A DNA stretch of 43,977 nt from Candidatus Bathyarchaeota archaeon (GTDB lineage Archaea > Thermoproteota > Bathyarchaeia > 40CM-2-53-6), in the NCBI GenBank assembly GCA_005882895.1, contig VBBD01000066.1, forward strand, positions 1 through 43,977. The letters are read 5' to 3'. The position numbers were made by a program, and so were the translations under genes. The notes beneath the pieces are model-generated. The model was given only the letters and a program-made list of their open reading frames with translations. It did not search any database and was not told the DNA's origin. Of the stretch, positions 8,776 to 34,532 are shown piece by piece. How positions within the stretch are numbered: position 1 is the stretch's first letter; every line of letters begins with the position of its first letter.

Positions 8776-9072
8776 GTGGCGAAACGGTCTCGGGTAGACA
8801 TCTATTCTGAGATACTAGAAGCCCTCAAGCGCAGGGGTCCCACGAAGATCACGCGAGTCTCCTATGCCGTTGGTCTTCCAGTGGACCGGATCAAGAGGTT
8901 TCTCACCGACCTTTCTTCTTTCGGATTGGTCAGAATACTCACCGGTGAGGATACGTCGTATTCGATAACCCATCGAGGGCTCGAGTTTCTCGAAGCGTAT
9001 TGGAAGCTTGCGAGCTTCCTGAAATTCTTGGGAGAGAAAACAACGCTCGAAGGCGATTCTGGAGAACTCTAA
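8776..9072 (+). CDS. Winged-helix protein (archaeal HTH type)
   Basis: 98 residues: SRVDIYSEILEALKRRGPTK, then a helix-turn-helix (RVSYAVGLPVDRIKRFLTDL) and a wing (LVRILTGEDTSYSITHRGLEFLEAYWKL). This is the typical layout of small archaeal winged-helix regulators of the PF14947 kind. It starts at GTG 11 bases after the bactofilin-like gene and is probably co-transcribed with it. The stop overlaps the stop of the convergent metalloprotease-like gene by 3 bases. Confidence 0.8.
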   Translation: MAKRSRVDIYSEILEALKRRGPTKITRVSYAVGLPVDRIKRFLTDLSSFGLVRILTGEDTSYSITHRGLEFLEAYWKLASFLKFLGEKTTLEGDSGEL

Positions 9073-9587
9073 GCTACGTAGCTTCTGTATTCTCTCTCGA
9101 ATTCCCTGACAATCTCGAACTTCGGCAACCTTCTAGATCTTGACTCGCCGTGATGCTGGAAGGTTATCTCCGGGAACATTACGGCGGGGCCGTCAACAGC
9201 TAGCCTGGTCGCCGGGTGGTCAGGTCCTAGTATTCTAGAGCAGATCTGGCGGGTTAGTCGTCGGACGTCTCCCTCATCCGCGTAGCCAAGGGTGTGGAGG
9301 TATTCGTGGAGTAGGGTGTAGAAGACGTAGGCGTTGATGTAGCGTCTGTCCTTGGCGAGATGAGTTATCTGGTCTAGTAGGCTTCTGTTCATGACGATGA
9401 AGTTGGATCCCATTTGATGGAATGCTCCGACATAATCGGGCAGGTCCGCGAGTCCCAGCATTAGCCCGGTGCGTCTTCGGCCTATGCTAGTCTTGACTGA
9501 TCTCTTGACGAGTTGGAAGACTTCCGAGAAGTTGAAGCTGCGGTCGAGGCTCTCCGACACATCCATGTTGTTCTGAGATGCTTCCAT
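9069..9587 (-). CDS. Putative zinc metalloprotease-like protein (HEYLH)
   Basis: 172 residues with the zinc-protease signature LLHEYLHTLGYADE near residues 90-103 (HExxH with a downstream acidic residue). The helix before it is YINAYVFYTLLHEY, as in minimal gluzincin/metzincin-like folds. No signal peptide or membrane helix is seen, so any activity would be cytoplasmic. The substrate and exact family are unknown. An ATG start at 9587 is used. It shares a divergent 100-base region, and possibly one TATA element, with the methyltransferase at 9687. Confidence 0.65.
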   Translation of the reverse strand: MEASQNNMDVSESLDRSFNFSEVFQLVKRSVKTSIGRRRTGLMLGLADLPDYVGAFHQMGSNFIVMNRSLLDQITHLAKDRRYINAYVFYTLLHEYLHTLGYADEGDVRRLTRQICSRILGPDHPATRLAVDGPAVMFPEITFQHHGESRSRRLPKFEIVREFEREYRSYVA

Positions 9588-9646
9588 TCGAGAATTTTTT
9601 CCTAAGCACGCAGACCACGTGCTCTAGGATGATTTTTGGCTCAGCG

Positions 9647-9656
9647 CTATATAAGG
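9647..9656 (+). promoter_or_regulatory. TATA box, possibly bidirectional
   Basis: CTATATAAGG lies 31-40 bases upstream of ATG 9687, which would give an almost leaderless transcript. It therefore excludes the upstream TTG at 9636 as start. The reverse complement CCTTATATAG can also act toward the minus-strand metalloprotease gene, with a leader of about 40 bases. Confidence 0.65.
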
Positions 9657-9686
9657 ACTGGATTTTGCATCATCCAATCAGAGGGC

Positions 9687-10415
9687 ATGTCCCTGGACAA
9701 TAGTAGAGACGAGTGGAGTAGCATCATTCGCGCCATCGAGGATGCGCTGCCCGCCTATGAGTCAACTAGCGAGTGGATATCCGTGGGGCTTGCAGGCCCT
9801 TTGAGGCGAAGAGCTGTCGCGTTTCTCCGGTCCCACCGGAGAGAATGGGTGTTGGATGCTGGTACGGGTCCAGGAGTCTCCAGCCGGATGCTGCTGGAGG
9901 ATAGCTTCGAGAAAATTATAGGACTGGATCCCTCAATTCACCTTCTAAGGTTTGCAGGATCTCGTCTAGGACGCAGATTCTGTCCGATTGTTGGAGTTGC
10001 GGAGAATCTGCCCTTGCGACCAGGTTCTTTGGGAGCTGTGATCACCTGCTTCTCGCTAAGAGATGTTGTGAGCCTTGATCGTAGTCTAGATGAGTTCGCG
10101 CGTGCTACAAGGCGTGGCGGTGCTCTCGCGGTTGTTGATATCGGCAAGCCTGACAGCACATTTTGGAGAGCCTTGATCGGCTTCTACATTTTACATGTTA
10201 TGCCCGTTCTAGCCCGCTCTGCGATTCGCGGAAAGACGCCAGGCAATCCGTTCAGGATGATCATTCCGACCTGGAAGAGGCTCCGGACCAACAAGCAACT
10301 CTCAGATCTTATTGGACAGTCATTTGGGCCGTGTGCATTGAAGAGTTTCCTCCTTGGAGGGCTGGTGGTCTTCGAGGCAGACAGACTCTCAGTCTGGAAA
10401 GACGTCCTTCAGTAA
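9687..10415 (+). CDS. SAM-dependent methyltransferase, UbiE/MenG-like
   Basis: 242 residues with a class I methyltransferase core: motif I VLDAGTGPGVSSRML, acidic motif II GLDPS, the VAENLPLRPGSLGAV loop, and the UbiE-like strand CFSLRDVVSLDRSLDEFARATRRGG. A hydrophobic C-terminal half (LIGFYILHVMPVLARS) suggests a lipid or quinone-like substrate, but the acceptor is unknown. The start is ATG 9687 because the TATA box lies just upstream. It is monocistronic, and its 3' side faces amt. Confidence 0.82.
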   Translation: MSLDNSRDEWSSIIRAIEDALPAYESTSEWISVGLAGPLRRRAVAFLRSHRREWVLDAGTGPGVSSRMLLEDSFEKIIGLDPSIHLLRFAGSRLGRRFCPIVGVAENLPLRPGSLGAVITCFSLRDVVSLDRSLDEFARATRRGGALAVVDIGKPDSTFWRALIGFYILHVMPVLARSAIRGKTPGNPFRMIIPTWKRLRTNKQLSDLIGQSFGPCALKSFLLGGLVVFEADRLSVWKDVLQ

Positions 10416-25543: not shown

Positions 25544-28500
25544 ACGGCAGAATCCAGGTCGCACCGAAGATCACTCCTCCTAGGTCTAGTTGTCTTCCTC
25601 CTGGTAGTCGCTCTCGGGGAGCTATACGCGCTCTATCTGAACTACCAAAACAACTTCTTCCTGCGCCAGTTTGTCTCCGAAAACCAAACCCGACTTCTAG
25701 TCCAGTCCACGGGACTATTGGTCTTCGGTCTTGGCGCTGGCTACCTATCCTATCTGTTTTCCCGAGCCAAGTCTACAAGCAGAGCAGGACGATACTCAAG
25801 GAAAATACTCTCCTTTTCTTCATTTATCATGGTTCTCGCTGCTGTGCTCCTTTGGTTCGGCGGTCTTAGTAGCATTGTTGGAGGCTCGACCATTGGCTTT
25901 GAGGTCTACATCATAGTTGTGCTGTTGTTAATTTCGCTAGGTACGATGCTTCGGGATCGGCTTACTTTCAGAATGGCGCTACGCAATTTTACCCGGAGGA
26001 AGACCAACATGGCGCTGGTCATCGCAGGATTAATGATCGGAACCGCGATGATCTCCGGGTCCCTTGTAACCGGAGACACTCTCACGGAGCTGTTCACCCG
26101 TGGTGCCTACTTCGGCTACGGCCACGCCGATGAAGTTGTCTATGCGAGAAACAGTACCACGATCGGGTTTCAAGGATCCGCCTACCAGTACTTCGGCTAC
26201 AACGTCTACCAGAGCCTCTCGACAGGTCTCTCCAACAATCCCTCCGCAGCACCCGACGTAGTAGGTGTCACCCCGGAAATAATCGAGACAGTCAGCCTCT
26301 ACGATACTAACAAGGGAATAGTCCAGGCAGGATCAGCGCTCATCGGGACCTTCTCCAACGCGTCCCGTGTTCTGGGGGACTTTCATTCCGCATCCGGATC
26401 AGTAATCCCATCCACTTTCCGTGACACCGAGGCCGTGCTGAACGACAAGGCAGCGCGAGACCTAAACGCTACCATAGGAGACACGCTCACCGTCTACTCA
26501 GCGCAACGCCTCACAACTCAACATCTCAATTTCACAGTCGTAGGAATAGCCGCGTCTGACGAGAGGGGCTCGTTCACACAAGGAGACGACGTGTTCGTCA
26601 CGCTTGGCATGGCTCAACAGTTTACTGGCCATCTCAACTCGGCCAACTACATCGCAATCACGAACATTGGAGGGCTAAGGGGGTCCATTCAATACAGCCA
26701 AACCGTGGCTCAGGCGGCAAATCAGACCCTGAACAACCTATACTCGACCACCCCATCGACAACTACCTCGACATCAACAGGATGCAAGACAGACCCTTCG
26801 ATGGCCGTGACGCCCCCCGCGATCCCATGCGCATTTACCGAGAAGAAGATCTCAGTCGATAGCGCCACCAGCGGTGCGAAGCAGCTTTCCATGTTCTTTC
26901 TCATCCTAAGCTCATTCGCAATCCTGGCCGGCATCGTTCTGATTCTCAACATTTTCATCATGTTAGCCGAAGAGCGGAAATCGGAGATGGGAATGGCCCG
27001 GGCAGTCGGGATGAGGAGGGGTCAGCTGACCAAACTGTTCCTGTTTGAAGGAAGTCTCTACTCCGCCGGTGCCTCAATCGTCGGGGTGCTAGTAGGAATC
27101 GGCGTCGCATACGGCATTCTATACGCGATCGGGAACATTTTCAGTTCCTTCATCACGGGTTTGAACGAGTCATTGGTTCTCAGTAGCTTCACCGTCTCCT
27201 CAGAGTCACTGTTTACCGCGTTCACCGCAGGAGTTCTGATAACCTACCTTACGATCCTTCTCACCTCCTGGCGCATAAGCAAGCTCAACATCATTAGAGC
27301 GATACGAAACATTCCCGAACCGCCAAGGGGAAAGAGAACCTACACTCTACTACTCGTGACTGGCTTCGCGATGGCACTCGCAGGAATCTTGGTTTTCCAA
27401 GCATCGTTCGCGGCCAAGTCGGCCATAGAAGCGCTCGTGGGACCAAGCCTCGTTATTTTCGGTGCAGGGCTCGTCCTGTCAAGGTTCCTCCGCAACCGTT
27501 ACGCCTTCACCCTCTCAGGTTTCGGGCTCCTTGTTCAGTGGGCGGTTCCGAGCCTGTCATTTGACAGTCCGCTGGTCTCGAACTACAGTTTCGGTCCTGA
27601 GGTGTTCATAATTGGAGGAATAATCATGGTCGTCGCCGCCGTTATGGTTGTAATGTACAATGTCGATCTTCCCTTGAAGGCGCTGCGTTTCCTCCTTCGC
27701 AAGAGGCGAACTCTGACCGCCATCTTCAAGATCGCCCTATCCTATCCTGAAAACAAACGCTTCCGGACGGCCGCTACCGTTGCAATGTTCGCTCTCGTCC
27801 TGTTCACCGTGTCGGCCGTTGCCGGCATTCAAGCCGAGCTGAATGCATCTATCAGCCAAAGCGCCAAAGATCAGTCCGGTGGATATGATATCGCCACCAA
27901 CACTGCTCCGATAGCAAACCTGACCTCGTCAGTGATGGCTGATGCAACATTGAGCAGTAAGGTCTCAGCAGTCATCCCATTTAGCACAGTTCTGCTCGAC
28001 GTGGCACATGATTCGTCCACGTCCCAGGATTTCCCTTATACCCTTCTAGTCGGAGCGGATCCGAACGCGCCGGAGACTGATAATTTCTTCACGACGAATT
28101 CGTTCAAGATGCTCAGCGTGGCTGCTGGCTACGTGTCCGCTACGGAGGTCTGGAATGCTGTCAGAAGCAACGAGTCCTACGTCGTATGGTCAGTGTCATT
28201 TGGAGGAAACGGGCATCCGAACCCCGGCGACAACCTCGTGCTCGCTGCGAGGCCTGCTGGGAATCTGGTGTTGAAGTCGGTGAAGGTTCTCGGGGTTCTG
28301 CGTGGACTGTTTGACGGAATACTAGGAGTAAGGGGACTTCTGAAAGACTCGTTCAACGTCGACTCCGGTACCTTGGGGCTTGTAAACGTAGCAAAGGGTC
28401 TGGATCCTGTTAATGTTGCCAACCTGTTGAAGAAGGATTTCATTCAGCTAGGCATGCAGACCATAGTTATCGAAGTGAGTATTGAACAAGGAGAGAGGAT

Positions 28501-28903
28501 TTTCCTATCATTCTTCGGATTGTTCGAAGGCTACCTAGCTTTGGGCTTGGTCGTTGGAGTTGCGGGCGTCGGAATTATATCGATACGCTCGGTTGTCGAA
28601 CGGAGGAATGAGATAGGTATTCTTCGCGCCCTAGGCTTCAGAAAGAGAATGGTCATGTTAGCGTTTCTTGTTGAGAGTAGTTACATTGCGCTTCTGGGAA
28701 TCATAATCGGAGTTTCGCTAGGCGTAGACTTAGCTTACGCGTTTACGGCCCAGCCCAACTCGGGCCTCTCTTTCGTGATCCCTTGGACGCAGATTATCGA
28801 AATCTCGGTGGCATCATACGCATTGGCGATGTTGTCCGTGATCAGCTCGGCCCGCAAGGCTTCAAGGATTCCACCCGCGGAAGCCCTTAGATACACTGAG
28901 TAG
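25544..28903 (+). CDS. ABC transporter permease, large FtsX/MacB type
   Basis: About 1120 residues. One membrane helix near the start (LLLGLVVFLLVVALGELYAL) and a second helix pair before residue 110 precede the FtsX-like halves. Each half has a large extracytoplasmic MacB-PCD-like domain (about 140-370 and 740-910), with membrane helices around 390-520, 590-690 and 930-1100. MALRNFTRRKTNMALVIAGL opens the first half. The frame has no ATG, GTG or TTG before 25718, which lies inside the second helix. ACG 25544, preceded by GGGGCGATC, is one possible start, as is a single missing base near 25570. It follows the ATPase gene directly. Confidence 0.88.
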   Translation, partial: TAESRSHRRSLLLGLVVFLLVVALGELYALYLNYQNNFFLRQFVSENQTRLLVQSTGLLVFGLGAGYLSYLFSRAKSTSRAGRYSRKILSFSSFIMVLAAVLLWFGGLSSIVGGSTIGFEVYIIVVLLLISLGTMLRDRLTFRMALRNFTRRKTNMALVIAGLMIGTAMISGSLVTGDTLTELFTRGAYFGYGHADEVVYARNSTTIGFQGSAYQYFGYNVYQSLSTGLSNNPSAAPDVVGVTPEIIETVSLYDTNKGIVQAGSALIGTFSNASRVLGDFHSASGSVIPSTFRDTEAVLNDKAARDLNATIGDTLTVYSAQRLTTQHLNFTVVGIAASDERGSFTQGDDVFVTLGMAQQFTGHLNSANYIAITNIGGLRGSIQYSQTVAQAANQTLNNLYSTTPSTTTSTSTGCKTDPSMAVTPPAIPCAFTEKKISVDSATSGAKQLSMFFLILSSFAILAGIVLILNIFIMLAEERKSEMGMARAVGMRRGQLTKLFLFEGSLYSAGASIVGVLVGIGVAYGILYAIGNIFSSFITGLNESLVLSSFTVSSESLFTAFTAGVLITYLTILLTSWRISKLNIIRAIRNIPEPPRGKRTYTLLLVTGFAMALAGILVFQASFAAKSAIEALVGPSLVIFGAGLVLSRFLRNRYAFTLSGFGLLVQWAVPSLSFDSPLVSNYSFGPEVFIIGGIIMVVAAVMVVMYNVDLPLKALRFLLRKRRTLTAIFKIALSYPENKRFRTAATVAMFALVLFTVSAVAGIQAELNASISQSAKDQSGGYDIATNTAPIANLTSSVMADATLSSKVSAVIPFSTVLLDVAHDSSTSQDFPYTLLVGADPNAPETDNFFTTNSFKMLSVAAGYVSATEVWNAVRSNESYVVWSVSFGGNGHPNPGDNLVLAARPAGNLVLKSVKVLGVLRGLFDGILGVRGLLKDSFNVDSGTLGLVNVAKGLDPVNVANLLKKDFIQLGMQTIVIEVSIEQGERIFLSFFGLFEGYLALGLVVGVAGVGIISIRSVVERRNEIGILRALGFRKRMVMLAFLVESSYIALLGIIIGVSLGVDLAYAFTAQPNSGLSFVIPWTQIIEISVASYALAMLSVISSARKASRIPPAEALRYTE

Positions 28904-28911
28904 CCTTAGAT

Positions 28912-30051
28912 CTACTTTCCTCTAGTCCTCTTCGTGGTTTCGCTCGCGGCTTCTTTGAGGAGCCTGTTGGTGCTCTCTGTGCTTCCTCCGAGCTTGAGGG
29001 TTTGTTCGTGTTGATCGGATAGTCGTTTTGTAGCCTCGATGAGATCGGTGCGACGCGTCTGTTCAGCATTCGCAGATAATTGGTTCATTGTTTTGGTGGC
29101 TTCCTTTAGTTGTCCCGCGGCTAGATGCTGGTAGTATTCTTCTAGCCCTTGGTAGTATGTGAATTCCGAGGTGAGGTTGTTGTTGATTCCTTCTGAGAAT
29201 TGCTCATCGTTCTTGGCCAGTCTGACCTCGACCGGGGCGTTGATGGTCTTCTTTTTGTCATCGATTGTGTCAGAGTATGTGACTTGAATGTTGAGTAGTC
29301 TCCCGTTGAATCCTGCGGGTATTGGGACTCGGCCCCAGATTTTTGCGACTGTTTCTACGGCATTGATTGATACCGGTGGGCCTTTGTAGTTGAGGATCTT
29401 GACATCGGGGGTTCCAAAATCTACGTTTATGTTTCTGGCGCCGACCTCGTTTACTGCGCTCTCCTGCATCAGGCTGGGGAGTTTGAGTTTCTGGGCGTCG
29501 GTGATGTTGTGGAGCGTTCCGCCGGATGCGTCGGCGAGAGCCTTCAAGATGGACTGGTTGTAGTCTGCGCCGATCCCGAATTCGATCATCTGGAATCCCG
29601 TGGGCATTTTTAGTTTCGAGTACTGTTCGGGTTTGGTGACGTCGGTGGGTTCGCCATCCGTTAGGAGGACGATCCATCCTGGGAGTCGGCTCTTTTGTGC
29701 TATTTCGAACGCTGATTGGAGCGCAGCGTAGAGAGCGGTCAACCCTGAGGCTCTGATCTTGGGAATAACCTCTGAAAGCCTGGTTTCCGGATAGGCTTGG
29801 ACTGTGCTTGAAAACAAGACGACAGAAACTATGTTTCCCGAGGGAATACTCTTCACGTATTCCTGGGCACCGTTCTTTGCCAGCTCGATTTTCTGGCCGT
29901 CCATCGACTTGCTAGTGTCGAGCACTATTATGTGGTGGAACCCTTTCGCTTCGGTGCGCCTCTCGGCGACGAGCGTGATCTTGAATATCGCGTCTATCTT
30001 GGAGTCGAACGAGTATGAGTGGCTGAGCTCGGTTCTTGCCGACAGTGTCAT
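28912..30051 (-). CDS. VWA-domain protein
   Basis: 379 residues. A von Willebrand factor A domain (about 38-205) carries the full metal site: DTSKS (DxSxS), SGLTALYAAL (Thr) and VLLTDGEPTD (Asp). A beta-sandwich-like region follows (about 210-305, VDFGTPDVKILNYKGPPVSI), then an Ala/Gln-rich helical tail (SEFTYYQGLEEYYQHLA onward). There is no signal peptide or membrane helix, so it is cytoplasmic. Its ATG overlaps the phosphatase stop by 4 bases, so it is the last gene of the FHA-phosphatase-VWA operon. A scaffold or phosphorylation target role is inferred. Confidence 0.92.
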   Translation of the reverse strand: MTLSARTELSHSYSFDSKIDAIFKITLVAERRTEAKGFHHIIVLDTSKSMDGQKIELAKNGAQEYVKSIPSGNIVSVVLFSSTVQAYPETRLSEVIPKIRASGLTALYAALQSAFEIAQKSRLPGWIVLLTDGEPTDVTKPEQYSKLKMPTGFQMIEFGIGADYNQSILKALADASGGTLHNITDAQKLKLPSLMQESAVNEVGARNINVDFGTPDVKILNYKGPPVSINAVETVAKIWGRVPIPAGFNGRLLNIQVTYSDTIDDKKKTINAPVEVRLAKNDEQFSEGINNNLTSEFTYYQGLEEYYQHLAAGQLKEATKTMNQLSANAEQTRRTDLIEATKRLSDQHEQTLKLGGSTESTNRLLKEAASETTKRTRGK

Positions 30052-30833
30052 AGTCTGATCTGCTCCATTTTGTCGCCGTCGAGAACCAATACGCCTGCGG
30101 ACCCGCCGTGATATTTGCTGGAAAATATCGTGATCACCTTTCCACCAAGGTCTTCTCTGAAGCCGTCAACGACCTCGTGGCCTCTGATGATTCCTTTTAG
30201 CGCGTTGTTAGCTAGGAACTTTTCTGTTACGTCGCTTCCGTAGTAGTATGCTCCGTCTCCTCGTACGCTTGGCAGGAAGCCATCTATCATGTCTCTGGGG
30301 TCGTTCCAGAGCAGTTGGAACGCCGTCGGGTCGTCAGGGTTCAGGTCGGGAAATGGTAAGTCTGCTATCTGGGATACGGTATCAAGTGTGGTGGCTATTC
30401 CGCCATGGAGGCAGAGATAGTTGTTCACAACGACAGCGTAGGGCATGGCCTGGAAGAACTCTTTGAAACTATCATAACTGGCCTCACCTAACTTCTCTGT
30501 AACCTCTTCGAGAAAGCCGTAGTAGGGGTTCGTCAGAGGGCTCTCATGATTTCCCCTCAACATTATGATCTTGTTAGGGTCGTCTAGAAACTTTGAAGCG
30601 ATTAGTCCGAGGTTCTCCACGCCGGTCTCTCCCCTGTCAACGTAGTCGCCTAGGAAGACAACTAGGTCGGCATCGCTGTAGAATTTGTCGAATACCGTTT
30701 GTGTAACATCAACCGCGGTATGCGTGTCTCCGACGAAGATGACTCTGTTCACGTCTCTGGGCTCGAGGAGTGGTTTTCCCATTTTCTCCTTTGCCTCTCT
30801 GATGAGCTGGGGAGTTTCCAGGGCTTCAATCAT
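30048..30833 (-). CDS. PPP-family protein serine/threonine phosphatase
   Basis: 261 residues of the PP1/PP2A-like metallophosphatase family with every two-metal motif: VGDTHTAVD (GDxHG variant, last Gly is Thr), FLGDYVDRG, MLRGNHESP, LHGGIA and IIRGHEVVDGF, with the C-terminal YHGGSAGVLVLD strand. RGNHE and DYVDRG mark true protein phosphatases rather than generic phosphoesterases. It would dephosphorylate targets of the neighbouring kinase. Its ATG overlaps the FHA gene's stop by 4 bases, so the two are translationally coupled. Confidence 0.95.
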   Translation of the reverse strand: MIEALETPQLIREAKEKMGKPLLEPRDVNRVIFVGDTHTAVDVTQTVFDKFYSDADLVVFLGDYVDRGETGVENLGLIASKFLDDPNKIIMLRGNHESPLTNPYYGFLEEVTEKLGEASYDSFKEFFQAMPYAVVVNNYLCLHGGIATTLDTVSQIADLPFPDLNPDDPTAFQLLWNDPRDMIDGFLPSVRGDGAYYYGSDVTEKFLANNALKGIIRGHEVVDGFREDLGGKVITIFSSKYHGGSAGVLVLDGDKMEQIRL

Positions 30834-31573
30834 TCACTCGTGAGCCTCACGATAGTGCCGGTACCGAACTTTACTATACTGTTCGGTTTAACCTCGACGC
30901 TATCGTGAACCTGCTGGAATTCCTTTCCGTTGTAGAGGAATGTGCCGTTCTTGCTGTTCAGGTCTTTCAGCATCAGCTTTGCCCCGTCCATTGTGAGTTC
31001 CGCATGTTTTCTCGAGACTTCTTGATCTGGTATGACGACCACGTTTTCGGGACTACGTCCGATACTGACGACTGGGAAGTCGTCGAACTCTATCGGGACC
31101 TTTGACTTGATGAGGGATTGGGCGGGAGTGTTCACGAAAACCATGTAGTATCGTCCGTGCCCGATCGCTGGGGTGGTGGCCGATGGGCTGAATGGGGTGT
31201 ATGGGGTAGGGGTTGGCAGGAAGGGGGTAATTTCAGGTTCTGGCAATGGGGGCTCCGGATTTTTCTCACTAGTGTCGAAAGAGAAAATTGTCGGTTCAGG
31301 GGGTGTTTCCTCAGCATCTATCTTCTCAGGTTCTGAAGCTTCTAGCGGTTCAGGTTCTTCTAGTTCCTTCGGTTCCTGTTCTTCTAGTGGTTCTGGGGCC
31401 TTCGGGGTCGCCGTGTCTCCAGCTCTGGCTCCACCGCATGATATGCATGCTTGTTTAGAGTCAGGATTGTCGGCCCCGCACGCTGAGCACGTCCAGATGA
31501 GAGTCTCCGCGGACTCCGCATCCAGATCAGGGTCTTTCTGCTTCGACTTACGCTTCATAGATGGACGCTTCAT
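30830..31573 (-). CDS. Zinc ribbon-FHA protein
   Basis: 247 residues. A basic N-terminus and a zinc ribbon (WTCSACGADNPDSKQACISC, about 28-47) precede a 100-residue Glu/Pro-rich linker (about 55-145) and a C-terminal FHA domain (about 165-247). The FHA phosphothreonine-binding residues are present: SIGRSPEN, SRKHAEL and NSKNGTF. FHA domains read phospho-Thr, so this is the likely reader of the neighbouring kinase. It is the first gene of the operon; ATG 31573 or 31558 may be used. It diverges from the kinase gene across about 136 bases where I could not fix promoters. Confidence 0.93.
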   Translation of the reverse strand: MKRPSMKRKSKQKDPDLDAESAETLIWTCSACGADNPDSKQACISCGGARAGDTATPKAPEPLEEQEPKELEEPEPLEASEPEKIDAEETPPEPTIFSFDTSEKNPEPPLPEPEITPFLPTPTPYTPFSPSATTPAIGHGRYYMVFVNTPAQSLIKSKVPIEFDDFPVVSIGRSPENVVVIPDQEVSRKHAELTMDGAKLMLKDLNSKNGTFLYNGKEFQQVHDSVEVKPNSIVKFGTGTIVRLTSE

Positions 31574-31709
31574 GGCTGCACTCTTCGGTTCTACTGCGTT
31601 GCGGGCATGTAATTGCGCTGGAACGAAAACCGCCCGGTGTCGGTCACACCGTTGATTACTAGGAATTTGAGTATGGCAAGTCTACCTTTAGGAAGGCGCT
31701 TGCTCCGCG

Positions 31710-33881
31710 TTGCCGCAGTTGAAGAAAGCCCGCAGGCTTCCCTTCACGCGGGACTCTTTCGGACCATTTCTCACCGTAGTGCTCTCTGTGCCGATCGCCT
31801 TTCTCTTCGGTCTAGGAATACAAGGTGATCCCTCAGCGTACATCATCGGGCTGGTCAGCCTCGGCGTTCTGACGTCTCTGGATCTGCGAGGCGGGATTCC
31901 AAGGGTCGGGGTCGGATTCGTTGTTTCGTTTCTCGCTTCTCTTTATGTCATTGGACACTCAGTCGCTGGACAAGGCCTGTCGCCGTTGTCGTTTGGGGAT
32001 CTATCCCTACTCCTCGTTGCCTTTCCACCCTCAATCGCGGTCCTCGTGGCGGGACTTCTCTTCTCGCGGGCGACACCCTACAAGATGATCAAATCAAACG
32101 TCGTTGCCTCGGTCGCGTTGGCGGTTGGGCTCGGCTTGGGGTCGGCTTTGAAGGCGGGTTCGGCTTTGTCAATAGACTCGCTTACTATACTGTTCTTCAT
32201 CGCGCTTGGTGCAGCCGCGAACATTGTCCAGATGGTTCTCTTCCATTTCCTCGACAAGGTGTGGCGCACCAAGAATCTCTCGATGTCAATGATGCCTACC
32301 GCTTTCTTCACGTTCAATCTGTTGGCCGTCCTCGGGTTTGTCGCCTCTCAGGATCTTAACCAGCTCTACCCGTTCGTTTCATCTCTCGGGTTCTTGCCTG
32401 CATTGGCGTTGGTCGGAGTTGGCTCTAACAATCTCGCGCAGAGAATATCGCTGGGACCCAGCCTTGGACCAACAATTAGCATAACGGGAGCACCGATCCT
32501 TCGACAGGGCAAAGAACAGACAATCAAGATCGCCACCCATTTTAGTGGGCATGCGATGAAAATGGCTAGGATCGTAGCGACAATTACAAGGCCTGGAGGT
32601 AAGATCGAGTCCCTGAAGGTATCTCAGGTTTCGGCTGGAGAGTACAGCGCGCACTATAGGCCTGGAGGCTCAGGCAACTATGCTGTGCATATTACTGCTA
32701 CAAGCAAGGAACACCAGACAGCCAGTCAATCATTTTCCTTCGATGTCCAATCGCCTCAGTCAAGTCCTCCTCCCCCGGCATCAAATCCACCTCCTCAGAT
32801 TCGTCCGCCGCCTCCGCCTCCCGTAATGCCCTCACTTGTGCAACTCCCTCCACGTCCTTCGATACCCTTTGTCAAGGGAAACCTTCCACGCTTGGATAAT
32901 TGGGACCCGAGAGTCTGGGTCGGCCAGGAGGTTCACAGTTACAAGATAACTGAGCATCTCGCCACGGGGCTCACCGGTTATGTTTTCCGTGCTAGCTTCG
33001 GGCAGGCGGGGACTGAAATGGCGATAAAGATTCCTATCCTCAGAACCGGGGCAGGGGCCGCTGCTCTCGAAGAAACCATGTCAGAGGCCACACGGCTCTT
33101 GGAACTGTCGGAGCAGTCGAAATATGTCGTCCAGCTCAGGGGAATCTTAGTTGACCGACTCAACATTCAGGAGATTGTGAGAGGCGATACGCAATTGTAT
33201 CTGCGCAGTCCTCCCGCGATAGTAATGGAATTGATGAAGGGCGGGGCTGCCAAGGGACTTCTGGAAGATGCGTCGTACGACTCGTTGTACTATTCCGAGA
33301 AGTGGGGTGGTATTGTCATGCTCATCGGCTATATGATAGCTACTGGACTGGAGACAATTCACAACGCGGGCTTCGTACATCTTGACGTCAAGCCGCAGAA
33401 CATTCTGTTCAACCTCAAACCCCCGGCCACTGGACAGGAGATGAGGGATCAGATGAAGTCTGGAACTCTCGTCCCGAAGCTAGCTGACCTCGGTTCCGCC
33501 GTGCGTATCGGAGGAAAAGTCGGCCAGTTCACATCGGAATATGCTCCCGGCGAACAAGTCTTGGGGGATAGCACGGCATCTTCCATGGACATCTACGCGC
33601 TGGGAGCTACACTATACAATATGCTGACGAAGACCCCTGTGAATTCCAAGAAGCTGATCGAGTTGATGAACACGATGACAAGTAATCCCGGGTCTGGTAG
33701 AACGGCGAGCGATCTGAAGTCGGCTTGGAACTCGTTCAACCCTGATTTCGATAGGATTGCCAAGCTCGCATCATCGGTTCCTGTCCTCAAGAAAATGTTG
33801 GATAAGGACCCTCGGCACAGGCCATCTGCCGGGTCTGCAGCTGCTTTGCTCCGAGACCTCGGAGACAAGACGCTATCCTAG
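31710..33881 (+). CDS. Eight-helix membrane Ser/Thr protein kinase
   Basis: 723 residues. About eight membrane helices (15-250) come first, then an Ig-like beta domain (GPTISITGAP...GGSGNYAVHITATS, about 253-345), a proline-rich hinge (350-390) and a kinase domain (405-723). Kinase residues present are a Gly-rich loop (ATGLTGYVF), Lys in MAIKIP, Glu in EETMSEA, the catalytic HLDVKPQN (non-RD, Leu for Arg), DLGSA in place of DFG, and EYAPGEQ. A basic N-terminus plus an even helix number puts the kinase in the cytoplasm. TTG 31710 is used. It is divergent from zinc ribbon-FHA, phosphatase and VWA genes. Confidence 0.92.
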   Translation: MPQLKKARRLPFTRDSFGPFLTVVLSVPIAFLFGLGIQGDPSAYIIGLVSLGVLTSLDLRGGIPRVGVGFVVSFLASLYVIGHSVAGQGLSPLSFGDLSLLLVAFPPSIAVLVAGLLFSRATPYKMIKSNVVASVALAVGLGLGSALKAGSALSIDSLTILFFIALGAAANIVQMVLFHFLDKVWRTKNLSMSMMPTAFFTFNLLAVLGFVASQDLNQLYPFVSSLGFLPALALVGVGSNNLAQRISLGPSLGPTISITGAPILRQGKEQTIKIATHFSGHAMKMARIVATITRPGGKIESLKVSQVSAGEYSAHYRPGGSGNYAVHITATSKEHQTASQSFSFDVQSPQSSPPPPASNPPPQIRPPPPPPVMPSLVQLPPRPSIPFVKGNLPRLDNWDPRVWVGQEVHSYKITEHLATGLTGYVFRASFGQAGTEMAIKIPILRTGAGAAALEETMSEATRLLELSEQSKYVVQLRGILVDRLNIQEIVRGDTQLYLRSPPAIVMELMKGGAAKGLLEDASYDSLYYSEKWGGIVMLIGYMIATGLETIHNAGFVHLDVKPQNILFNLKPPATGQEMRDQMKSGTLVPKLADLGSAVRIGGKVGQFTSEYAPGEQVLGDSTASSMDIYALGATLYNMLTKTPVNSKKLIELMNTMTSNPGSGRTASDLKSAWNSFNPDFDRIAKLASSVPVLKKMLDKDPRHRPSAGSAAALLRDLGDKTLS

Positions 33882-33980
33882 ATGATCGATCGAGAGCGTT
33901 GACGGAGCGATCTCGCGGATAGTCTGGGACACTCAACCTAGGAAAATGCTGAAGTACGCTGGCTCGTTGAAAATTGTTCA

Positions 33981-34532
33981 ATGCGTAGCTGTCCTATTTG
34001 CGGAAAAGAGGTCCAGGCGGCGACGGCGTACTGCCCGTCCTGCGGCACAGACCTTCGACAGATCTCAGCTGGTCCCACGATGCCGACCGGAAGCTATCCG
34101 CCAGCCTATTCCTATCCACAGCAAGGAACGATGATTCCGGCAGGAGGCCAGTCGCATAGTCATAGAAAGTACATTCTGGCAATCGTCGCCGTAGGCATAA
34201 TTGCTCTCCTAATAGGCGGATTGATCGGTTACTCACTCCCGATACCGCCCGACTTCACTACTCTAACTGGAACAGTTACTCTGAGCAGCCAATTTAACGG
34301 AGCTCCCCACCTGATAATATTCGACAGTTCCGCCACGGGCAATCTGAGCTCGGCTGTGTTCCCTAACCACTCTTACGCGGTCAATCTCCCTATCGGAGGA
34401 CCAGCATATTCTGTCACAATCGAGTGGCAGAACCTAACGAGCAGCCCCAGTATAGCAGCCCACTGGTGCAACGCCTCTCCGAGCACTTTCAGTTCGTCTA
34501 ATTCCAACGCTACTCAGAACTTTAGTTGCTAG
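33981..34532 (+). CDS. Zinc-ribbon membrane protein
   Basis: 183 residues: an N-terminal zinc ribbon (MRSCPICGKEVQAATAYCPSC, two CxxC), a Pro/Tyr-rich linker (about 30-58), one membrane helix (KYILAIVAVGIIALLIGGLI, about 63-84) and an extracellular beta-rich Ser/Asn domain with two late cysteines. It lies 100 bases after the kinase gene on the same strand and may share its transcript. The cytoplasmic ribbon plus outside domain suits a surface sensor or anchor, but this is inference. Confidence 0.75.
   Translation: MRSCPICGKEVQAATAYCPSCGTDLRQISAGPTMPTGSYPPAYSYPQQGTMIPAGGQSHSHRKYILAIVAVGIIALLIGGLIGYSLPIPPDFTTLTGTVTLSSQFNGAPHLIIFDSSATGNLSSAVFPNHSYAVNLPIGGPAYSVTIEWQNLTSSPSIAAHWCNASPSTFSSSNSNATQNFSC

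Follow-up and report, generated by a model that had tools for sequence, protein, structure and literature searches.

An archaellum regulatory network module beside a membrane kinase in one family of Bathyarchaeia

Introduction

Do a kinase, a phosphatase, a phosphothreonine reader and a VWA protein that are encoded side by side in an archaeal genome make up one signaling switch, and what would such a switch control? The question is raised by positions 28912 to 34532 of contig VBBD01000066.1 (assembly GCA_005882895.1) from a Candidatus Bathyarchaeota archaeon; the whole stretch analyzed, 43,977 nucleotides long, is called the window here. An initial annotation, made from the sequence alone, described five genes at this locus: zinc finger-FHA, PPP phosphatase and VWA genes with 4-base overlaps, a membrane Ser/Thr kinase with eight helices and a zinc-ribbon membrane protein. 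The combination was regarded as undescribed in archaea, and its nearest relatives were sought among the TerY-type groups of bacteria, in which a kinase, a phosphatase (usually PP2C) and a VWA protein occur together. The claim of novelty was wrong, as the core is the known archaellum regulatory network (Arn) of Sulfolobus. We consider it quite probable that the locus is the Arn phospho-switch of the Sulfolobales, consisting of ArnA, ArnB and PP2A, transferred into one family of Bathyarchaeia and set beside a membrane kinase.

In Sulfolobus acidocaldarius, the archaellum is repressed by ArnA and ArnB, and PP2A binds both (PMC7472852). Phosphorylation of ArnB by the kinase ArnC is stronger with ArnA and leads to larger ArnA/B complexes, which PP2A dissolves (PMC7472852). 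ArnC and ArnD both target the ArnB C-terminus (PMC5300886). Phosphorylation of the ArnB helical bundle converts a loose complex held by the zinc finger into a tight one held by the FHA domain, with T353, T363 and T375 modified first and T322 and T335 later (PMC12852372). ArnA and ArnB are also present in Sulfolobales without an archaellum, additional roles were proposed earlier, and 11 predicted kinases are listed for Sulfolobus (PMC5300886). ArnA acts with ArnB as a repressor of DNA-damage-response genes in Saccharolobus islandicus, where PP2A also dephosphorylates ArnB (PMC10470591).

Results

Identity of the three overlapping genes

Three of the five genes encode ArnA, PP2A and ArnB. All five open reading frames (ORFs) were confirmed to be open at the coordinates first given; domains were assigned with Pfam, and structure matches were obtained by sequence comparison against the PDB (Table 1). 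The VWA protein matches the solved S. acidocaldarius ArnB (8s05_A, E 3e-98) over residues 2-377 and carries ArnB_C, the "Archaellum regulatory network B" C-terminal domain of Pfam. The FHA protein matches the solved ArnA structures 5a8i and 8s05_C (E 4e-43). The phosphatase is a PPP enzyme that matches PP1, PP2A and PP5 structures (E down to 1.5e-34) and is 52-56% identical to the sole PPP match in genome G325. That genome is S. acidocaldarius or a near copy, as shown by an ArnB identical to 8s05_A from residue 2 to residue 380. At both of its ends the phosphatase gene overlaps its neighbor, arnA or arnB, by 4 bases. The initial description of these three genes was correct in coordinates, overlaps and domains.

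The residues expected of such proteins are largely conserved. In ArnB, the MIDAS residues D45, S47, S49, T105 and D132 are invariant in 14/14 rows of the alignment. Four of the five ArnC-target threonines reported for S. acidocaldarius ArnB are kept in the window protein (T322 as T319, T335 as T332, T363 as T361 and T375 as T373), which supports the earlier suggestion of the VWA tail as a possible target of phosphorylation. The FHA pocket residues R132, S146 and R147 (S. acidocaldarius numbering) are retained in ArnA. The phosphatase residues D36, H38, D63, R67, N95, H96, H143, R191, H219 and Y241 are kept in 10/10 rows; these residues, like the kinase residues given below, have catalytic roles in their families. 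The locus thus has an ArnB with MIDAS and ArnB_C, an ArnA with zinc finger and FHA domain, a Sulfolobales-type PP2A and the ArnB-bundle threonines. It does not have the soluble TPR kinase ArnC, and a membrane kinase of another clade is present instead.

ArnB records of relatives were matched in the "Candidatus Bathyarchaeota" isolates BA_22 and BA_23 (94% and 96% identical) and in a Centralia metagenome-assembled genome (66%). Among the matches listed, the best 80 of 258 loci, these 3 are ArnB (66-96% identical over 379 residues) and the other 77 are generic VWA proteins, which were not used. The same 80 matches contain no Sulfolobales record and are uninformative on absence.

Conservation of the gene neighborhood

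ArnB_C was found in 18 of 256 genomes of the window's class, all of them within the window's family (f1, n = 21), and no match was obtained in the other 235 class genomes searched. The three family genomes without a match (G003, G008 and G020) are 67-79% complete; in G008, an FHA place whose frame has an internal stop shares a contig with a kinase fragment. The window genome itself is 86.6% complete, in 92 contigs. Of the 18 genomes with ArnB, 16 have arnA, the PPP gene and arnB in one uninterrupted row; contig ends cut the loci of the remaining two, L091 and L094. A membrane kinase gene adjoins the module in 16/16 assessable genomes and is divergent from arnA in 15, in one of which it is cut off by the contig end. 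The PPP gene and arnB overlap by 4 bases in all 16 family loci holding both genes, and arnA and the PPP gene do so in 14/15 loci, the overlap in G019 being 8 bases. This arrangement is far beyond chance. FHA domains were found at one place each in 10 of 21 family and order genomes, all in the family (10/13) and none in the eight order-mates (0/8). The window genome has one FHA place, one full PPP and one PF00069 place over the cut-off.

The neighborhood bears out the earlier proposal that the writer, reader, eraser and VWA genes belong together, and ArnA, ArnB and PP2A are known to act on one another in Sulfolobus (PMC7472852, PMC12852372). The conserved set comprises arnA, the PPP gene, arnB and the kinase gene, and the zinc-ribbon gene drops out of it: tblastn gave no match at E <= 0.01 in the 17 loci retrieved from the family, although several of these do not reach as far as that position. 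We therefore rejected it as a cluster member. All of its Pfam zinc-ribbon matches fall below their cut-offs, and it may be genus-specific or strain-specific.

Only nine loci of the family (L081-L086, L089, L091 and L092) share flanking ABC, FtsX, ChrB or MFS genes, which shows that the conserved unit is the module and not the whole region. Bin contamination was considered and is unlikely given these recurring flanks. The large FtsX/MacB-like permease gene beside arnB (25718-28903) is about 90% identical in L083 and L085 and about 60% identical in L081, L082, L084, L086 and L091, and the adjacent ATPase is 94-98% identical where present, a contrast that hints at gene replacement.

Beyond the class, a draw from the phylum gave ArnB_C in 25 of 398 genomes: 19 from the S. 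acidocaldarius family (f42, Sulfolobaceae-type), 4 from f1, 1 from f40 and 1, below the cut-off, from f60. Eleven of the 19 Sulfolobaceae-type genomes have the order arnA-PPP-arnB and eight have arnA-arnB without a PPP gene; among these eight, those searched for PP2A have it elsewhere in the genome. The place beside arnA was fetched with flanks in all 19, and additional ArnB_C places were fetched in part. The loci with PP2A between arnA and arnB are L050, L056, L059, L060, L062, L065, L067 and L071-L074. At L076, from the non-Sulfolobaceae genome G431 (f40), the PPP gene adjoins a gene for an ArnB-like protein. ArnA is encoded about 5 kb from there and a kinase at a distance of about 10 kb, a looser form of the same gene set. 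In the Sulfolobaceae-type genomes G480 and G426, a further ArnB_C protein is encoded about 5 kb from a membrane kinase of about 830 residues, which matches the window kinase over residues 272-706 (L048:1048-3537 with 8930-10135; L058:993-3485 with 8827-10011).

The membrane kinase

A plain hydropathy scan gave 7 hydrophobic segments for the window kinase and 6-8 for its family relatives. It is a membrane Ser/Thr kinase, as annotated, and the count of eight helices is not settled. A filamin match was weak (0.0022, below the Pfam cut-off), and the whole kinase has no PDB sequence match at E <= 1e-8. The residues K440, E459, D559, K561, N564 and D593 are invariant in 14/14 family rows.

A tree was built from 35 kinase domains, and the 15 kinases of the family make up a single long-stemmed clade in it. 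The TPR kinases of G325, G480 and G575 group apart from these, with full support, together with the kinase beside arnA-arnB in G527. The G325 kinase is identified as ArnC (Saci_1193), because it lacks a membrane segment, has TPR repeats, in agreement with Table 1 of PMC5300886, and is encoded about 17 kb from arnA. The window kinase is outside this ArnC clade, and no ArnC-clade kinase was found in the family genomes searched. It resembles membrane kinases of the Sulfolobaceae without a clear ortholog, the best S. acidocaldarius match being 40% identical to it in a 717-residue frame.

We propose the window kinase as the candidate ArnB kinase. Its adjacency to the module and its being the sole PF00069 place over the cut-off in the window genome, with one further weak place below, count for this. 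In G527, an ArnC-clade TPR kinase gene lies directly behind arnA-arnB, with no PPP gene there, and so kinase adjacency to arnA-arnB has precedent. Another possible explanation is that the Arn core is correct and the membrane kinase is a stable neighbor with another substrate, with ArnB phosphorylated by a RIO/Bud32-type kinase or by one encoded in the missing part of the genome. The placement outside the ArnC clade, the changed position in G019 and the further weak PF00069 places, one of them in the window genome, would fit this explanation, but it has to set aside an adjacency kept in 16/16 assessable genomes as well as the sole match over the cut-off, and we regard it as unlikely.

Origin of the module

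A tree of 69 PPP rows was built, with frames shorter than 225 residues, identical copies and the re-fetched loci L125, L126 and L145 omitted. All 16 PPPs of the family group with the 19 of Sulfolobaceae type (support 95/96), and both are nested in a wider group with f40, f37 and f59 (98/94). The window's class is further represented by seven PPPs of other families, which make up a distant clade of their own (97/90). Forcing the family and class PPPs together costs 111 log-likelihood units (approximately unbiased test, p-AU 1.1e-7); this test was run after the tree had been seen, and the grouping tested was the one predicted by vertical descent. With a class-type PPP as query, the PPP of the Arn locus was the sole match in 11/11 family genomes (34-42% identity), and the order-mate G024 gave a PPP of 52% identity. 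In a tree of 59 ArnB rows, from which frames of 330 residues or less were left out, the family falls as a single clade on the side of ArnB, apart from a 13-row group with the divergent S. acidocaldarius paralog, which is taken to be ArnE.

The grouping of the PPPs with those of Sulfolobaceae, together with the failure to find a class-type PPP in the family, suggests a transfer of the module. The most likely source of the operon is a Sulfolobales-like lineage, and the resident PP2A was then replaced by it; donor, direction and date are not proven.

Output of the module

The archaellin family PF01917 was found in 0/21 family and order genomes and was detected in 4 control archaea; the search was limited to this family and did not include ArlF, ArlG, ArlX or ArnR. 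An archaellum operon with archaellin, as a target of the module, was not seen in these genomes, and the archaellum is unsupported as the output. The window genome has a pilus-like cluster encoding an ATPase, a T2SSF protein, two KaiC-like ATPases, prepilin-like proteins, a TrmB-type regulator and a prepilin peptidase. The ATPase gene (L078:1608-3016, contig C5) is split into two open frames in the window genome and is a single frame of 534 residues in relatives; G017 and G015 have it intact. Compared with the ATPase of an order-mate's pilus-like cluster, the intact ATPases show 51-52% identity, and compared with S. acidocaldarius ArlI they show 37%.

Since PF01917 was not found and the ATPase is closer to that of a pilus-like cluster, a pilus or stress response is likelier than an archaellum, and the module more likely acts on surface structures, such as a type IV pilus-like system, or on a stress response. 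It is also conceivable that the module controls a true but divergent archaellum, with the KaiC-containing cluster as the motility organelle. The gene content of the cluster (ATPase, T2SSF, KaiC-like ATPases and prepilin-like proteins), the 37% identity to ArlI in intact relatives and the Arn control of the archaellum in Sulfolobus agree with this. However, archaellin was detected in the controls and not in the 21 genomes, the ATPase is nearer to that of the order-mate's cluster, and that order-mate has no ArnB_C. We consider a divergent archaellum doubtful.

Layout of the locus

The features of the locus are listed in Table 1. The 136-base region between arnA and the kinase gene presumably holds both promoters, and an alignment of the window with 7 genus relatives showed long conserved blocks in it, which are perhaps promoters or an operator.

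Table 1. Features of the Arn locus and its neighbors, in window coordinates
Feature	Position	Strand	Evidence
arnB (VWA and ArnB_C)	28912-30051	-	Pfam VWA 1.8e-13, ArnB_C 3.2e-20; PDB 8s05_A
ArnB, C-terminal ArnB_C helical bundle	28921-29178	-	
ArnB, VWA domain	29482-29931	-	
PP2A-type PPP phosphatase	30048-30833	-	Metallophos 4.3e-29; PP1/PP2A/PP5 structures
arnA (zinc finger-FHA)	30830-31573	-	FHA 1.6e-17, Zn_ribbon_RanBP 5.3e-07; PDB 5a8i, 8s05_C
ArnA, RanBP2-type zinc finger, followed by linker	31424-31495	-	
ArnA, FHA domain	30863-31069	-	
Divergent intergenic region, 136 bases	31574-31709		Blocks conserved in relatives
Membrane Ser/Thr kinase	31710-33881	+	Pkinase 4.5e-25
Kinase, hydrophobic N-terminal part	~31752-32420	+	
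Kinase, filamin/Ig-like stretch, followed by proline-rich linker	32502-32711	+	Weak
Kinase, kinase domain	32940-33839	+	
Zinc-ribbon membrane protein, single-span	33981-34532	+	Sub-cut-off zinc-ribbon matches

Discussion

By analogy with the Sulfolobus experiments, from which complex formation, phosphosites, dephosphorylation and repression are carried over, the switch would work as follows. The membrane kinase, perhaps sensing through its hydrophobic domain, would phosphorylate threonines of the C-terminal helical bundle of ArnB. This would convert a loose ArnA-ArnB complex, held by the ArnA zinc finger, to a tight one in which the ArnA FHA domain grips the phospho-threonines of ArnB. The complex would repress target genes, and PP2A, made from the same set of overlapping genes as ArnA and ArnB, would remove the phosphates and release the complex.

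Several observations weigh against the transferred Arn switch in one or another of its parts. Phosphorylation of ArnB by the window kinase is a prediction, and further kinases occur in relatives and could act instead. Weak kinase matches of about 220 residues, the size of RIO or Bud32, were found in several relatives and may be Bud32-like. G010 has a second strong kinase match in a frame of 1018 residues (G010:C52:3370-4161, L288, E 2e-48), which may be foreign or a contaminant; it is stronger than the match of the Arn-locus kinase. In G019, the kinase gene sits behind arnB and is not divergent. The fast phosphosite T353 is Q350 in the window ArnB, with the neighboring T354 kept as T351, and the FHA phosphate contact Thr-167 is Lys208 in the window ArnA, the five family rows used for comparison having K, A or S there; binding may therefore differ in detail. 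In S. acidocaldarius, mutants in a single phosphosite pair keep the ArnA-ArnB interaction (PMC6509490, PMC12852372), and they bind still after long phosphorylation (PMC12852372). The direction of transfer is not proven, as the ArnB tree does not fix the branching order of the family, Sulfolobaceae and f40. Elsewhere in the window genome there is a second, weak PPP-like fragment with an internal stop (E 4.9e-4), and the incompleteness of this genome makes absences there soft.

Carried further, the preferred account of a transferred Arn switch would be that a soil family of Bathyarchaeia captured a Sulfolobales-type operon, lost its class-type PP2A and coupled the switch to a sensor kinase in the membrane. 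The 5-kb locus would then be nearly all of the Hanks-kinase, PPP and FHA signaling of the organism and would control surface structures or stress genes without an archaellum. We give this fuller account an even chance.

The wiring of ArnA and ArnB in Sulfolobus is hard to read, with many predicted kinases and with PP2A encoded away from arnA and arnB in S. acidocaldarius. The Bathyarchaeial locus brings a kinase, the phosphatase, the reader and the target together, and a definite kinase-substrate pair can be proposed. The Arn switch would also be separated from the archaellum in this family. If the transfer is true, such a switch is able to pass from one archaeal class to another as an operon and to take the place of a resident PP2A.

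The literature searched (titles and starts of abstracts, with most subscription papers, including the 2012 ArnA/ArnB naming paper, outside its scope) contained no report of an Arn module outside the Sulfolobales. No literature was found linking ArnA and ArnB with Bathyarchaeota, and the passages searched of PMC7472852 do not mention PP2A adjoining arnA or arnB. Within this literature, four things look new: arnA-PP2A-arnB beside a membrane kinase in one family, the grouping of its PP2A with Sulfolobaceae (read as transfer of the module), the placement of the membrane kinase outside the ArnC clade, and the lack of an archaellin match in genomes with a type IV pilus-like cluster.

Comparison with known systems

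A bacterial TerY-type triad, to which the co-located VWA protein, phosphatase and kinase had pointed, is very improbable, since the phosphatase is PPP and not PP2C, the VWA protein matches ArnB from end to end and no TerY-named model was among the Pfam or NCBIfam results. TerY-type groups share a VWA protein with a kinase and a phosphatase and differ in the phosphatase superfamily and in lacking ArnB_C. A defense system was also rejected: the PADLOC matches of the kinase were generic (mad6, PD-T4-6, MkoA and others), ArnB had one marginal match (CARF_HEPN, E 0.009), and ArnA, the PPP and the zinc-ribbon protein had no match at E <= 0.01.

The S. acidocaldarius network (PMC6509490, PMC7472852, PMC12852372) has the same three full-length proteins with the same domains, MIDAS and most of the phosphosites. 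In the window, however, PP2A is encoded between arnA and arnB and not elsewhere, a membrane kinase and not the TPR kinase ArnC is beside the operon, T167 and T353 are changed, and the host belongs to another class, in a family without a PF01917 match. The Saccharolobus islandicus system (SisArnA, ArnB and ArnE with PP2A; PMC10470591) is similar in its repression through ArnA/ArnB outside the archaellum and in PP2A acting on ArnB. Its output is the DNA-damage response and ups pili, and ArnE was not found in the window genome, which has one ArnB_C place.

The gene order is shared with the arnA-PP2A-arnB operons of 11 of the 19 Sulfolobaceae-type genomes, mostly with the same 4-base overlaps. Those operons differ in having no directly adjacent kinase and often an ArnE-type VWA paralog next door, and a separate ArnC-type kinase is present in both of the genomes searched with the kinase (G480 and G575). 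The presence of PP2A within these operons provides a genomic argument for the interaction of ArnA/B and PP2A known from biochemistry.

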